IMG/VR virus record: IMGVR_UViG_3300025147_000050
Coordinates: 1 to 20,410 of that record
Source: a virus
DNA length: 20,410 bases
Reading direction: 5' to 3' (one strand)
In this document: one piece after another, positions 2,840 to 8,247 of the stretch
How the letters are laid out: the number at the start of each line of letters is the position of its first letter
Position numbering within the stretch: the stretch's first letter is position 1
Notes under the pieces: generated by a model
The model's input: only the letters and a program-made list of their open reading frames with translations
Told to the model about the DNA's origin: nothing
Databases searched by the model: none
Position numbers and translations under genes: made by a program

Positions 2840-4448
2840 TAAAAAGAAAATATACTTTTCCGATCCGCAGCTGGAGTTTCGCTATACAGCAGCTCACACC
2901 AGTGTTGTGGTTGCTGGTCGTCGATTTGGAAAAACTCACGGCTTAGCAGCTCCCTGGCTTTTACGGAATGTGCAATATATGCCCCGTGCTGCAGGAGCTA
3001 TTGTCGGTTCCACTTTTCAGCAGATCCTTACCCGAACACTTCCGGGAACATTGACAGCTCTTGAAGATATGGGGTTTTACCGTAACGTCCATTATTTTGT
3101 CGGAAGGAAACCGCCTATAACTGCAGGATTTAAGAAACCTGTCCGGGAACCGGTTTCCTTTGATCATGTTATAAGTTGGTATAACGGATCTGTTCAATAT
3201 TTGATTTCCCAGGATATTCCCGGATCATCCAACTCACTCACGCTTCAGTACGTAATGGGTGATGAAGCAAAGTTCCTGAATTTCGATAAATTGAAAGATG
3301 AGACTTTTCCGGCAAATGGTGGATTTAAAGGATCATGGGCAAATTGCCCCTGGCTAAACTCAATGCTTTTCATCTCAGACATGCCAACTACCAAGAAAGG
3401 ATCATGGTTCCTGAATTATGCTGATAAGATGGACCCTGAGTTAATCAATATGATTCAATCCCTGGTAAAAGAGATTTTCAGGCTAAAATCACAAATACAA
3501 AATACCTACACGGTTCGAATGATCCGGGAATATCAGCTGAAGCTCGCGCAGTTCCGCAGCATTGCTGTTTATTACCGTGAATGGTCATCCATCGAAAATA
3601 TTGAACTATTAGGCAAGAAGTATATTCAACAGATGAAGCGGGACCTTCCACCACTTGTTTTTCAAACATCTATCCTTTGCATCCGCCCGGGGAAGCTGAA
3701 GGACGGGTTTTACCCTGCATTGTCCGAAACAAGGCATATGTATTCAGCTTACGATAACTCATACCTGCTCAATCTTGATTATGATTTAGATAAGATTAAA
3801 GAACCCGACTGCCGGCAGGATGGAGACTTAGATCTGGATGATCCTATCAGGGTTGCATTCGATTATAACTCTGATATCAATTGGCTCGTATGTGGACAGC
3901 CTTCATGGTCTAAGGCAAAAGTAATCAAATCATTCTATGTGAAGTATGAGCGTAAGTTGCGTGAGGTTGTTGATGACTTCTGCAAATACTACCGTTTTCA
4001 TCATTCCAAAGAGGTTGTCTATTACTATGACAATACAGCACTGGGCAGTAACTATGCCGTAAGTGATGAGGATTTTGCTTCTGTTATCTGCTCACAGTTC
4101 GAGAAGAACAGATGGACAGTGAACAGGCAGCACATAGGCAACCCATTACGCCACAATGAAAAGTACCTGATCTTTGACCAGGCATTCAAAGGACAGAAGT
4201 ACCTGATGCCTCAAATCAATCAGCCAAACAATGAAGCCCTTGTATTAGGGTTACAACATGCAGGTGTTAGGATTGGATCACACGGCTTTCAGAAGGATAA
4301 GTCTGAGGAGAAGAACAAAGAGACAGAAGAAAGCCTGTTGGAACATCGCACAGATGGCACTGATGCCTTTGATACCCTAATGATAGGCATGATGCTGTAT
4401 CCGGTGAAGGGCAGCGTTGGTGGTGGGTTGGGTAGTTCTTGGATATAG
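2823..4448 (+). CDS. terL: phage terminase large subunit (packaging ATPase and nuclease)
   Basis: 541 aa, a normal length for the family. The N-terminal ATPase has a Walker A motif AGRRFGKT (31-38) and a Walker B LQYVMGDEAKFL (141-152, D147/E148). A long coiled helical insertion follows (about 205-250, LVKEIFRLKSQIQNTYTVRM). The C-terminal RNase H-fold nuclease shows three acidic sites: D347 in VAFDYN, D403 in YYDNTALGSNY, and D514 within DGTDAFDTLMIG. The enzyme pumps phage DNA into the prohead and cuts it into genome units. It overlaps the small-subunit gene by 17 bases. No portal gene follows it; the portal lies 5.4 kb away, beyond an accessory region. The last residues (GSVGGGLGSSWI) form a flexible Gly-rich tail. 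Confidence 0.95.
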   Translation: MSETIDKKKIYFSDPQLEFRYTAAHTSVVVAGRRFGKTHGLAAPWLLRNVQYMPRAAGAIVGSTFQQILTRTLPGTLTALEDMGFYRNVHYFVGRKPPITAGFKKPVREPVSFDHVISWYNGSVQYLISQDIPGSSNSLTLQYVMGDEAKFLNFDKLKDETFPANGGFKGSWANCPWLNSMLFISDMPTTKKGSWFLNYADKMDPELINMIQSLVKEIFRLKSQIQNTYTVRMIREYQLKLAQFRSIAVYYREWSSIENIELLGKKYIQQMKRDLPPLVFQTSILCIRPGKLKDGFYPALSETRHMYSAYDNSYLLNLDYDLDKIKEPDCRQDGDLDLDDPIRVAFDYNSDINWLVCGQPSWSKAKVIKSFYVKYERKLREVVDDFCKYYRFHHSKEVVYYYDNTALGSNYAVSDEDFASVICSQFEKNRWTVNRQHIGNPLRHNEKYLIFDQAFKGQKYLMPQINQPNNEALVLGLQHAGVRIGSHGFQKDKSEEKNKETEESLLEHRTDGTDAFDTLMIGMMLYPVKGSVGGGLGSSWI

Positions 4449-4483
4449 ATAATCATCAATGGTAATTACTTCCACCTTTTTCT

Positions 4484-4491
4484 TACTTTTG
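4484..4491 (+). promoter_or_regulatory. candidate -7 element after terL
   Basis: TACTTTTG fits the Bacteroidetes -7 consensus TAnnTTTG exactly. No good TTTG is found 19-21 bases upstream, so the promoter is weak or activator-dependent. It would start transcription near 4496-4499, at the left end of the structured leader. Confidence 0.4.
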
Positions 4492-4495
4492 CCAA

Positions 4496-4640
4496 ACGAC
4501 ACAATATGATTTATAATGCAGCAGAACAGTATGCCATACTGGGCTGTGAGCATGGGTGAAAGTCCCTCGCTACTGTTTTTGCTGCGAAGCAATCTGTTGT
4601 GTCGTACCACACAGCCCTTCTTTTATACGACACAACATGA
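4496..4640 (+). promoter_or_regulatory. candidate structured switch-like mRNA leader
   Basis: Complementary segments found by eye: P0, 4496-4506 with 4595-4605 (9 bp plus G-U and A-U); P1, 4518-4531 with 4571-4585 (13-14 bp, one bulge); P2, GGGCTGTG 4541-4548 with CACAGCCC 4610-4617; P3, TTGCT-GCGA-AGCAA 4579-4592, a GNRA-capped hairpin; P4, 4595-4606 with 4626-4637 (12 bp, perfect). P0 and P4 compete for the same strand, as do P1 and P3. P2 and P4 together would form a pseudoknot. P4 covers the A of the start codon at 4637. A GGG-TGAAAGT-CCC hairpin lies inside at 4554-4566. The pattern suggests a two-state translational switch. No energy was computed and no known RNA class is claimed. Confidence 0.5.
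4506..4559 (+). CDS. possible 17-residue leader peptide
   Basis: ATG 4506 opens a frame encoding MIYNAAEQYAILGCEHG and stopping at TGA 4557. The start is preceded by ACGACACAAT, nearly identical to ACGACACAAC before the start at 4637, so both may use the same kind of initiation region. The stop lies in the small hairpin 4554-4566. Past the TGA the frame stays open to 4640, where it would end in an ATGA overlap with the 56-aa gene. It is a candidate upstream peptide only; so short a frame can arise by chance. Confidence 0.25.
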   Translation: MIYNAAEQYAILGCEHG

Positions 4641-4807
4641 GTAAGTTCCAATTGATCTATGAAATTGAAGCTGATGACATCAAGCAAGTTATTGCCATCG
4701 CTCTCCAGTCCTATGACCTCACAGGAATCGAACCCACCCGAATCATAACAGAAACGGAATCTATTGCATGGGTAAGACAGGAGATGATCAAGGCCATCAC
4801 TAAGTAA
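4637..4807 (+). CDS. small protein of unknown function
   Basis: 56 aa from ATG 4637. The frame is open further upstream to 4556, but that part runs through the structured leader and gives a Cys-rich, implausible sequence, so the ATG that follows ACGACACAAC is preferred. The protein is a compact alpha/beta-type sequence: FQLIYEIEADDIKQVIAIAL, then TGIEPTRIITETESIAW and a helix ending in K. No membrane segment or motif is recognised. Its start codon is the end of a 12-bp inverted repeat, so translation could be controlled by RNA folding. It is the only likely gene between terL and the accessory cassette at 5350. Confidence 0.55.
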   Translation: MSKFQLIYEIEADDIKQVIAIALQSYDLTGIEPTRIITETESIAWVRQEMIKAITK

Positions 4808-4885: not shown

Positions 4886-4906
4886 TGTTTAGAATCATTC
4901 TAAACA
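4886..4906. promoter_or_regulatory. Fur/PerR-family-like palindromic operator
   Basis: TGTTTAGAAT-C-ATTCTAAACA is a perfect 10-1-10 inverted repeat. Its core TTAGAATCATTCTAA differs from the PerR box TTATAATNATTATAA at two symmetrical positions and resembles the TTTAGAA...TTCTAAA half-sites bound by other Fur-family regulators such as Irr. No Fur-family gene is in the window, so a host regulator is inferred. The nearest downstream gene starts at 5350. Confidence 0.45.
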
Positions 4907-4980
4907 CTCGGGCATATACCGTAAAATTATGTAAAAAATAATGACATTTCCACGCAGGGCGGGGCGGGGTCTTCTGACGG

Positions 4981-5016
4981 AAAAGGGGGAAACCTTCCCC
5001 CTTTGACCTCCTTTTT
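4981..5016 (+). terminator. strong G/C hairpin, possible terminator
   Basis: AAAGGGGGAA (4982-4991) pairs perfectly with TTCCCCCTTT (4995-5004) around a 3-base loop. The T-run (5012-5016) begins 8 bases after the stem, further than usual, so termination efficiency is uncertain. It could close the unit of the 56-aa gene. Confidence 0.45.
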
Positions 5017-5892: not shown

Positions 5893-6312
5893 ATGAACAA
5901 AGATAGTAAAAAAGAACAATACAAGGCAAACCGCACCGCCTTGATTCAGATTTCAGCAGGTTTAAGGGTATTAGTTAAAGCGGGAGAACTCGACAGCGTG
6001 AACGAAGGATTAAAAGAAATTTACGAAAAGTCAGATTCCAACATTGAAGAGTTTAGAACTTTTTGGCAATGGAAGGATGAAGGTTATACAATCAATAAAG
6101 GTTCAAAAGCATTTCTAATCTGGGGACAACCGCGCAAAGGTTCACAAATAGCCGAAGGAAGCGACGAGCCGGAAGATTATAAATATTGGCCGCTTTGTTA
6201 CCTCTTCGCAAATACGCAAGTATTCAGACCGGAAAAGGAGAAGCAACCCGAGCAGGAGCAACCACGCCACCAACGCACAACCGCCCCGATTTTTGACGAA
6301 TCAATGATTTAA
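5893..6312 (+). CDS. ArdC N-terminal-like (ssDNA-binding) small protein
   Basis: 139 aa from ATG 5893. Residues 60-78 (WKDEGYTINKGSKAFLIWG) and 98-111 (YWPLCYLFANTQVF) follow the layout of the ArdC N-terminal ssDNA-binding domain: a Trp/Gly turn, a 'V-x-K-G-x-K' strand and a later F-N-x-x-Q-V-F-type strand. ArdC proteins are anti-restriction factors carried by conjugative elements. Only the N-terminal part is present here; the C-terminal metalloprotease-like domain is absent and replaced by a Gln/Glu/Pro/Arg-rich tail (about 112-139). A role in protecting incoming DNA is inferred from the family. The gene sits between a coiled-coil protein and a RadC-like protein, and the similarity should be treated as moderate. 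Confidence 0.6.
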   Translation: MNKDSKKEQYKANRTALIQISAGLRVLVKAGELDSVNEGLKEIYEKSDSNIEEFRTFWQWKDEGYTINKGSKAFLIWGQPRKGSQIAEGSDEPEDYKYWPLCYLFANTQVFRPEKEKQPEQEQPRHQRTTAPIFDESMI

Positions 6313-6337
6313 CTATTAACTTTTTAAATATCACATT

Positions 6338-6790
6338 ATGAAACTTTTAAAAGATTTTCAAATTGCAGAAGTGAAAATGAGTTATAACCCTAAAATAGAT
6401 ATTAAGACAGCGCCCACAATTTCAGGAAGTAATTTTGCCTCCCGATGTTTAGCGGAAAGCTGGGAGGACCTTGAATATATTGAACGATTCAAAATCATGC
6501 TATTAAACAGGGCAAACAAGGTAAAAGGAATTATTACTATTTCAATTGGAGGTACTACCGGATGTGTCGTTGATGTAAAAATAGTTTTGCAGGCTGCAAT
6601 ACTTTCAAATTCAAATAGTATTATAATTGCCCACAACCACCCATCCGGAAACCTAAACCCGAGTGACGCAGATATTAAAATCACCCGATCAATAAAAGAA
6701 GCATGTAAATTTCAGGATATTAGCCTGTTAGATCATATGATTATTACAGCAGACGGATTTTATTCTTTTGCCGATGAAGGTTTATTATAA
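6338..6790 (+). CDS. radC: RadC-like JAB-domain protein
   Basis: 150 aa from ATG 6338. It carries the JAMM/RadC signature H99-x-H101-P-S-G-N-L-N-P-S109-D-A-D112 within AHNHPSGNLNPSDADIKIT, and an upstream Glu (E47 in LEYIERF) in the usual place of the catalytic glutamate. The C-terminal DHMIITADGFYSFADEGLL matches the normal RadC ending. At this length it is the JAB domain alone, without the N-terminal helix-hairpin-helix of chromosomal RadC. Such short forms are common on plasmids, conjugative transposons and phages. The JAMM fold binds zinc in its characterised relatives, but the substrate of RadC proteins is not established. It is the last gene of the cassette. Confidence 0.88.
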   Translation: MKLLKDFQIAEVKMSYNPKIDIKTAPTISGSNFASRCLAESWEDLEYIERFKIMLLNRANKVKGIITISIGGTTGCVVDVKIVLQAAILSNSNSIIIAHNHPSGNLNPSDADIKITRSIKEACKFQDISLLDHMIITADGFYSFADEGLL

Positions 6791-7024
6791 AGGCTGATTT
6801 GTTTGTAATTACGCTGTGCGGATGGCTTATGCCTGATCCGCCGCGCCTGGAAGCGGAATTCCGCGATGCTCCGTCCATATATGGCCGGATTTTTTGTGTC
6901 CAAAAAACTGTACTTCGTTCAGGTCGCTCTATCGTGTTTGTTTATTTTATTTTTGCCAGCTTTCCAATCTTTACAAAAAGGCACCAAAGGATTACTCTTT
7001 AAACATGTTCTTAAACATACAAAA
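6791..7024 (+). other. hairpin-rich intergenic region after the RadC-like gene
   Basis: No gene is supported; a 67-codon open frame from 6799 is biased and lacks a leader. The region holds GCGGATGGC-TTAT-GCC-TG-ATCCGC (6818-6841), a GCGGAATTCCGC palindrome (6853-6864), the terminator at 6870-6896 and an AT-rich tail with two TTAAACAT repeats. Confidence 0.6.
6870..6896 (+). terminator. terminator of the 5350-6790 cassette
   Basis: TCCG (6870-6873) pairs with CGGA (6886-6889) around the inner stem CCA/TGG (6875-6877/6882-6884) with one mismatch. T6890-T6895 follow. It lies 80 bases after the stop of the RadC-like gene. Confidence 0.65.
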
Positions 7025-7050
7025 TAAATGTGCAAAATGTTGCACATTTA
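7025..7050. promoter_or_regulatory. 26-bp palindromic operator
   Basis: TAAATGTGCAA-AATG-TTGCACATTTA has perfect 11-bp arms around a 4-base spacer. Its right arm contains the TTG that forms the -33 element of the promoter at 7039-7070, so a bound dimer would block RNA polymerase. The XRE protein at 8513, last gene of the operon it controls, is the obvious candidate repressor; this link is inferred. Confidence 0.7.
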
Positions 7051-7070
7051 AAATAGATAGTATATCTTTG
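7039..7070 (+). promoter_or_regulatory. promoter of the 7117-8809 operon
   Basis: GTTG (7039-7042), 20 bases, then TATCTTTG (7063-7070), a full match to the Bacteroidetes -7 TAnnTTTG. A small hairpin AGAGC-N6-GCTCT (7087-7102) lies in the 5' leader, 15 bases before the start at 7117. Confidence 0.7.
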
Positions 7071-7116
7071 AGACATACAATTTAACAGAGCGGGACAGCT
7101 CTATAATCTCTGCACA

Positions 7117-7584
7117 ATGATTATGAAAACAATTACAAAAACAGCAACGGTAACAACAGAAAGAGGAACAGTAGTAAACATGACTACTACAACGACCAGG
7201 GGTTTTGAAATGGTAAACGAAGAGTTATTTAATGATGGGTATAACTCAACTGTTAAAAAAGCACAGGTAACCGAAAAAACAGAAACTATTTTGACAATAA
7301 AAGGAGTTGAATACAATGGATATTTCAGCGTTCTTTCGGCAAGAGAGCAAAAGGAAAAAGGTGTTTACTGCATTTTTTATGCCAAACAAAATTGTGGCTT
7401 TAGCCAGGTTGTATATGATATTTTAAATACAGCAATTGCAGGGGCAAAAGCAGAAGCCGAAACAGATCAAAGCTGGATTGACTATCGCGTTCGCCTGGCA
7501 GTAGCGGAAGCCGAAGAAATTGAATATTACAAAAATTACAACAAGGTTAGCAATGCAATGACATTAAATGGACACTCTTATTAA
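7117..7584 (+). CDS. unknown protein, first gene of the XRE-type operon
   Basis: 155 aa from ATG 7117; an in-frame ATG at 7123 is equally plausible. The first 30 residues are Thr-rich (MKTITKTATVTTERGT then MTTTTTRG). The middle is alpha/beta-like (ETILTIKGVEYNGYFSVLSA, then GVYCIFYAKQNCGFSQVVYD). The C-terminus is an Ala/Glu helix (IDYRVRLAVAEAEEIEYYKN). No signal peptide, membrane helix or catalytic motif is recognised. It is separated from the next gene by 18 bases and shares its promoter. Because the operon is operator-controlled and ends in two DNA-binding proteins, a function that must be kept silent in the lysogen is possible, but nothing in the sequence fixes it. Confidence 0.7.
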   Translation: MIMKTITKTATVTTERGTVVNMTTTTTRGFEMVNEELFNDGYNSTVKKAQVTEKTETILTIKGVEYNGYFSVLSAREQKEKGVYCIFYAKQNCGFSQVVYDILNTAIAGAKAEAETDQSWIDYRVRLAVAEAEEIEYYKNYNKVSNAMTLNGHSY

Positions 7585-7602
7585 TCTAAACATCCAAACA
7601 CC

Positions 7603-8247
7603 ATGAATCAGCAAGAAATCATAAACAAATTAAAGCACCTACCCGATGATAAAATCGGGGATGGTGTTTACATCGCCTACCAATGGACGGACAAGAAGCT
7701 AACACGACTATATTTGGGGACAAAGCAATGCGGGCCAATGTTACAATTCGACATCTACAAACATGAAACTTACGGAACGGGTGTAGATATTACAATCGCT
7801 GAAACCGTCACACCGGTAATGTATGGTACTCATTACGATGGAGAAAAAGAGCGTTATTTTTTAGCGGGGGCTTGGACTAATCTTTATAGCCGTGGTAATT
7901 TTAGAAACAATTACGCCTGTGGCGGTAATTGGTCTGGACATACAAAAAACCTACTAAGCCCTTCGTGGGAACACAAAGATAAATCCAGTGAGCTGTTTAT
8001 AGTCGACAAGGATGTGATAGTTTTACCTAAAGGGATAGTTGGCAATACCCAACAGATTGAAATGGATTGTTCTGGCGCATGGTCTATATTTTATGACTCA
8101 GCAAGAGAGGCATTAATCAATCGCCTACCTGTTAATAAACTCAAATCGTCGCAACTACCCGAACTTACTAAAGCCCATCTGCTAAAAAATGAAACTCCCG
8201 ATGTGCTTGATCATCTCATGGACGTAATTGAGGCATATAATCTATAA
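7603..8247 (+). CDS. unknown protein in the XRE-type operon
   Basis: 214 aa from ATG 7603. The N-terminus is a short helix, then strands typical of a small beta-sandwich or barrel (GDGVYIAYQWTDKKLTRLYL, MLQFDIYKHETYGTGVDITI, RYFLAGAWTNLYSRGNFRNN). It is rich in Tyr, Trp and Asn. Two Cys lie in or near GNWSG (YACGGNWSG) and a third in MDCSGAWSIFY. The C-terminus is helical and Leu-rich. I do not recognise the family and see no enzyme motif or export signal. It is followed after 2 bases by the HTH gene at 8250, so they are co-translated. It may be the effector that the two regulators control. Confidence 0.7.
   Translation: MNQQEIINKLKHLPDDKIGDGVYIAYQWTDKKLTRLYLGTKQCGPMLQFDIYKHETYGTGVDITIAETVTPVMYGTHYDGEKERYFLAGAWTNLYSRGNFRNNYACGGNWSGHTKNLLSPSWEHKDKSSELFIVDKDVIVLPKGIVGNTQQIEMDCSGAWSIFYDSAREALINRLPVNKLKSSQLPELTKAHLLKNETPDVLDHLMDVIEAYNL

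Follow-up and report, generated by a model that had tools for sequence, protein, structure and literature searches.

Between terL and a 56-aa gene of a viral DNA fragment lie two near-identical copies of one sequence, ACGACACAATATGA at 4496–4509 and ACGACACAACATGA at 4627–4640, together with a strand complementary to both. The question is whether this 145-nt stretch works as an RNA switch and, if so, which start codon it controls. We use the window for the whole stretch of DNA analysed, 20,410 nt of IMG/VR record IMGVR_UViG_3300025147_000050. A sequence-only reading had proposed that the complementary strand can hide either of two start regions; re-read from the sequence, the repeats, helices and pairings that it listed are all in place, and its placement of the element between terL and the 56-aa gene is borne out.

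An exact 13-mer of the repeat has only two matches in the whole window, the two copies themselves. The switch strand at 4595–4606 (TGTTGTGTCGTA) forms 12 perfect base pairs with 4626–4637, a helix (P6) that takes in the A of the AUG at 4637. The 11 base pairs claimed for the first copy are likewise present, between 4595–4605 and 4496–4506, one of them G-U, and this helix (P1) extends beyond a bulge to 4511/4591. The arrangement consists of an arm at the 5' end (a), a strand complementary to it (a*) and a near-repeat of the arm (a') that runs into the start codon. Since P1 and P6 both use strand a*, the two helices are exclusive. The features, in window coordinates, are as follows.

4484–4491, + strand: putative Bacteroidota-type −7 box TACTTTTG (TAnnTTTG), with spacing conserved in nine members
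4496–4511, + strand: arm a, the 5' strand of P1, nearly identical to the start region; predicted RNA 5' end and putative anti-sequestor
4518–4530, + strand: P2 5' strand, read from the sequence, with compensatory changes in L058 and L003
4537–4540, + strand: conserved TAYY directly 5' of the pseudoknot strand, from the nine-member comparison
4541–4548, + strand: pseudoknot 5' strand GGGCTGTG, pairing 8/8 in all nine members
4549–4571, + strand: P3 hairpin, AGC-AT-GGG-(TGAAAGT T-loop)-CCC-TC-GCT
4572–4585, + strand: P2 3' strand, overlapping the competing hairpin
4579–4592, + strand: competing hairpin P5alt, TTGCT-GCGA-AGCAA, exclusive with P2
4591–4606, + strand: switch strand a*, partner of the 5' arm (P1) or of the start region (P6)
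4606–4609, + strand: 4-nt linker ACCA from a* to the pseudoknot strand
4610–4617, + strand: pseudoknot 3' strand CACAGCCC
4618–4626, + strand: U-rich loop from the pseudoknot strand to the P6 3' strand
4626–4639, + strand: start region a', ending in ATG (4637–4639) and covered by P6 with 4595–4606
4637–4807, + strand: 56-aa gene, the proposed cis target, with no Pfam, PHROG or PADLOC match

The long helix is present as 4518–4530/4572–4585, and the duplex of the window's arm a with a* has an energy of −22.5 kcal/mol. As a check on fold stability, the 145-nt stretch was compared with shuffled sequences, which it surpasses (z −2.97). The reverse strand has a folding energy almost as good, and the strand was therefore assigned from the promoter box, the start codon and the G-U pairs.

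The comparison rests on eight further distinct homologues, two close and six distant, which with the window form a nine-member set (the window; L058 and L003, close; L100, L101, L112, L113, L116 and L118, distant). L022 and L073 are identical to the window. The close relatives carry the element at about 90–92% identity to it; their core TACTGGGCTGTGAGCATGGGTGnAAGTCCCTCGCTACT is constant apart from n, and their arms differ with compensation, a triple in L003 covarying across a, a* and a' from A-U-A to G-C-G. The covariance model R2, which describes the core only and includes neither arm a nor a', matched two Prolixibacteraceae genomes (L100 with 49.7 bits and E 1.6e-9, L101 with 47.5 bits and E 6.5e-9, both per genome), and the other four distant members were added by a pattern scan plus R2. 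All three arm copies are present in each distant member (GCTAACGACAT, ATGTCTGTTAGC and GCTAACAGACATG in L100; GCTAGAATACTAT, ATAGTGTTCTAGC and GCTAGAACACTATG in L101). Because the search model for the core contains neither a nor a', the arms provide an independent confirmation of the distant members. The pattern that retrieved four of the nine sequences has the P3 core fixed, and conservation of that core is therefore partly by construction.

Sampling of about 900 distinct Bacteroidota genomes with R1, R2 and R3 gave the two Prolixibacteraceae genomes and one decayed copy; only some candidates were scored per genome, and the member count may be too low. The decayed copy (L121:1351–1720, − strand) belongs to the same genome as L101 and is partial, its 5' half being recognisable and its pseudoknot 3' strand and start region lost. 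Searching phage and plasmid collections directly at the DNA level returned nothing useful. Pattern matches L074–L078 and L099 proved on inspection to be chance or unrelated hairpins, and covariance-model matches L096–L098 and L120 (22–30 bits), with neither a matching pseudoknot nor the arms, were rejected on the same grounds. One of these, L098:1501–1613, is a long hairpin with the tip GGGTGTAAGTCCC that resembles P2-P3, without arms or pseudoknot partner; L120 denotes that same site, which by our reading of the open reading frames is flanked by a rhomboid-like and an ispG-like gene.

Compensatory changes in homologues, the comparison to which the sequence-only reading had pointed, were found. 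The arm sequences differ between groups, and the a/a*/a' scheme is kept in all nine members. P1 duplexes from a member's own arms stand at −24.4 kcal/mol against −8.6 kcal/mol for between-group swaps (best swap −15.5), and P6 duplexes at −20.0 kcal/mol (range −18.4 to −22.5) against a swapped mean of −6.7 kcal/mol (best swap −10.5), with P6 comprising at least 11 bp in 9/9. Own and swapped energies separate completely for each of these helices. P2 averages −19.8 kcal/mol with its own strands and −9.1 when swapped, with overlapping distributions because a similar P2 sequence is common to some groups; in L101 and L118 this helix is less well paired. The pseudoknot, which had been proposed as an 8-bp pairing, has exactly 8 bp in every member, with changes on both sides at four pairs (strand pairs GGGCTGTG/CACAGCCC, GGGCCGTG/CACGGTCC, GGACCGCG/CGCGGTCC, GGATCGTG/CACGATCC, GGGTAGTG/CGCTACCC and others).

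For the core structure as a whole, both-sided changes occur at 9 of 18 pairs, a count reached by none of 500 shuffles, in an alignment that was fitted to the model and has both pseudoknot strands ungapped. Sliding the partners by 1–3 columns lowers the paired cells from 91.6% to 31–53%. Aligned together, the window, L058 and L003 fold with z −5.2 relative to column-shuffled alignments, and none of 500 shuffles did as well. A hairpin also stands at the position of P5alt in all nine members, with a summed energy of −29.7 against −11.5 for shuffled sequences (sd 4.2; 0/300), and its loop is UUCG or GCGA in four of them.

The same comparison bears on whether these repeats act as DNA, for recombination or protein binding, rather than as RNA. 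Three copies of one motif, direct and inverted, would suit such an element, as would its cassette-like behaviour: the RNA and the 56-aa gene appear to travel together, since both are missing from four relatives whose TerL is 95–96% identical (L004, L005, L006 and L018). A DNA-level element is nevertheless very improbable, given that the repeat sequence varies between groups with pairing kept, that the + strand uses G-U pairs, that the distances to the promoter box and start codon are fixed, and that the loops (GCGA, UUCG, T-loop) are typical of RNA.

The two copies of the repeat differ in their surroundings. In all nine members the 5' arm begins exactly 4 nt downstream of the putative −7 box, whose variants among the homologues are TATCTTCG, TACCTTTA, TATCTTTA and TACCTTAG; TAnnTTTG is the −7 consensus of Bacteroidota (PMC7366714). 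A foreign insert replaces everything upstream in L003, and since homology to the window resumes at the TAnnTTTG box, the predicted RNA start is placed there. Transcription would begin at about 4496, making arm a the extreme 5' end of the RNA. The insert itself (L003:4623–5370) spans about 750 bases from terL to the RNA, carries small reverse-strand ORFs and is missing from the window's phage. A sigma-70-like match at 4489–4517 was set aside, as Bacteroidota promoters follow another consensus.

At the other end, a' reaches the start codon of a 50–100-aa ORF in 9/9 members, whereas the ATG at 4506 is missing at that place in every other homologue. The proposal of a two-state RNA stands, but not that of two alternative start regions, as a conserved start codon adjoins the second copy alone; the first is probably the 5' end of the RNA and a competing decoy arm. 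Control by a leader peptide read from 4506 would make use of the short frame that this ATG opens in the window. With the ATG missing from L058, L003 and all distant members, with other frames through the core shifting between members, and with no short ORF conserved in position or frame, we find such control scarcely conceivable, unless the window departs from all its relatives, and give up the attenuator of that kind suggested earlier.

The spacing of the pseudoknot is also constrained. TAYY at 4537–4540 reads TA in all nine members, followed by Y and then by T (eight) or C (one). The linker is ACCA in eight members and TCCA in L003, and the U-rich loop measures 8–11 nt in eight of the nine and 20 nt in L101. 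Such limits (8 bp, 4 nt and, in 8/9, 8–11 nt) would be expected if the pseudoknot and P6 form together. The order, pseudoknot 5' strand, a*, pseudoknot 3' strand, a', with the start region in the 3' helix, is as read from the sequence that of an H-type pseudoknot.

The U-rich sequence, which follows the stem in most members (TTTTTTTAT in L058, TCTTTTTT in L101), could alternatively belong to a transcription attenuator, in which P3 and P5alt are enclosed by a GC-rich basal stem of the pseudoknot strands, a U-tract follows, RNA polymerase halts ahead of the gene, and P1/P2 act as anti-terminator. A pattern scan does give one terminator-like site here, but with a different stem. L058 and L101 have a good U-tract, but that of L112, L113 and L116 is poor; the apical part would measure about 60 nt; and no role would remain for a', an arm that is strongly conserved and runs into the AUG. 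We consider an attenuator quite unlikely.

We instead regard the element as a probable cis-acting translational RNA switch of Bacteroidota phages. The layout likened earlier to a translational riboswitch is present: the two helices about the start codon exclude one another, and a pseudoknot and a competing hairpin accompany them. The comparisons support the fold and both exclusive pairings; the ligand, the direction of switching and the function in vivo we infer. Pairing of a* with a (P1) would expose the start codon of the 56-aa gene (ON), and pairing with a' (P6) would hide the AUG (OFF), with GGGCUGUG pairing with CACAGCCC adjoining P6. P2, formed with P1, and P5alt would make up a second exclusive pair. 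P2, P1 and the pseudoknot might conceivably form at the same time. Transcription yields arm a first, so P1 should already be in place when a' emerges, and the start would be accessible except where the pseudoknot state of the core is stabilised. With the pseudoknot left out, the energies of P1 and P6 are nearly balanced, lying 0.1–4.3 kcal/mol apart in all nine members. The conserved core is the likely sensor, and binding would shift the balance, most likely to OFF, such that the bound molecule would switch the gene off; this direction is the least certain step. The trigger may be a ligand or a protein, and folding order, a protein or translation could drive switching instead of a metabolite.

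Within the core, the P3 loop at 4557–4563 reads T(G/T)NAAGT across members, and the P3 lower stem is AGC/GCT in members A–C (the window's form) and AGT/ACT in most others. Among the 21 stretches retrieved with the core pattern, nine lie in the 3' half (T-arm end) of tRNAs called by ARAGORN, and the other non-members were dropped by model or inspection. The tRNA matches, which make up most of those outside the RNA itself, together with TTTAAGT in L101, indicate that this loop is better read as a T-loop than as a GNRA loop. Its likeness to UGNAANU had suggested a cobalamin riboswitch, a candidate rejected since no cobalamin-family match appeared up to E 10.

The earlier statement that no ligand class is recognised agrees with a gathering-threshold scan of the window against Rfam 15, which gave no match; in E-value mode, 4400–4720 together with L100, L101 and L118 gave matches only far below gathering scores. 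Literature searches found no description of this RNA, and an earlier listing under a motif number in supplementary motif lists (e.g. those of PMC8040213) is conceivable.

Known classes share parts of the design. In H-type 'direct occlusion' riboswitches (SAM-II, preQ1-II; PMC10907184) the ribosome-binding or start region likewise lies in the 3' helix of a pseudoknot, and in preQ1-II a stem-loop similarly interrupts a pseudoknot loop. Unlike these, the phage RNA adds a 5' competitor arm that swaps strands with the start region, and it has a T-loop hairpin, a long P2 and no Rfam match. Strand-exchange translational riboswitches (group 3, PMC10907184) likewise place one strand in two exclusive helices, ON and OFF, whereas in the phage RNA the competing strand, at the 5' end, nearly repeats the start region itself, and a pseudoknot is added. 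Cobalamin riboswitches also have a T-loop in the core, and docking of that core with an expression-platform hairpin; the phage RNA, however, is without the four-way junction P3-P6 and its L4-L6 T-loop contact, and its pairing strand lies 5' of the T-loop hairpin and not in an L5-like loop. We describe an uncatalogued structured RNA with comparative support, from Bacteroidota phages and prophages, in which a strand-exchange switch, a pseudoknot and a T-loop come together. Its arms are freely rewritten with pairing kept, so that compensatory-mutation tests are simple to design.

A structured 5' leader, a conserved core and an apparent expression platform before the next gene, the features by which riboswitches are recognised, are found by sequence and comparison. 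We tentatively suggest, as a possibility somewhat short of an even chance, a new riboswitch class, seen so far only among phages and prophages of Bacteroidota. Its T-loop/pseudoknot core would sense a host metabolite or a tRNA-related factor and set the time at which the leading gene of the head/portal operon, or accessory genes inserted at that place, are translated.

The window is a Bacteroidota phage fragment carrying terS/terL, the element, the 56-aa gene, an ArdC-like protein, RadC, HTH genes and a portal gene assigned by similarity to Polaribacter phage Leef_1. Small proteins of one homologous family follow the RNA in the window, L058, L003, L101 and L113, and those of a second family in L100, L112 and L116; that of L118 (100 aa) is unrelated or very distant. 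No convincing family match was obtained for the small downstream proteins tested. In L100, L101, L112, L113 and L116 a 73–75-aa gene and then the portal gene come after the small gene, with two further ORFs intervening in L101. The presumably controlled 50–100-aa gene is usually the first gene before the portal gene; as the RNA heads the portal operon in most cases, it gives an opportunity to test whether phage late genes are controlled at the RNA level.

This setting also invites an autoregulatory leader, in which the T-loop/pseudoknot core would be bound by the small protein, or by a different protein of the phage, and translation of the bound protein's own gene would be repressed. At the start of the portal operon the RNA stands in company with two small-protein families, and the P3 T-loop resembles the tRNA T-arm, a shape that proteins recognise. 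One RNA core with two unrelated downstream families and the 100-aa protein of L118, however, makes self-binding by each unlikely, though a third protein is a possible binder; overall we judge autoregulation unlikely as an alternative to the riboswitch-like switch.

In the L118 record the RNA heads three small ORFs, followed by a SIR2-Argonaute. In the same phage record, L128:1137–4301 (− strand) and 6298–7749 (− strand) encode the 1054-aa SIR2-Argonaute (PADLOC pAgo) and, upstream, a TIR-TPR protein, apparently defence cargo within a phage record. A GC-rich intergenic element, GGCATATACCGTAA...GCAGGGCGGGGCGGGGTC, lies at 4905–4985 of the window; similar elements stand downstream of terL in many relatives, including phages without the RNA, and are possibly a packaging site or promoter region.
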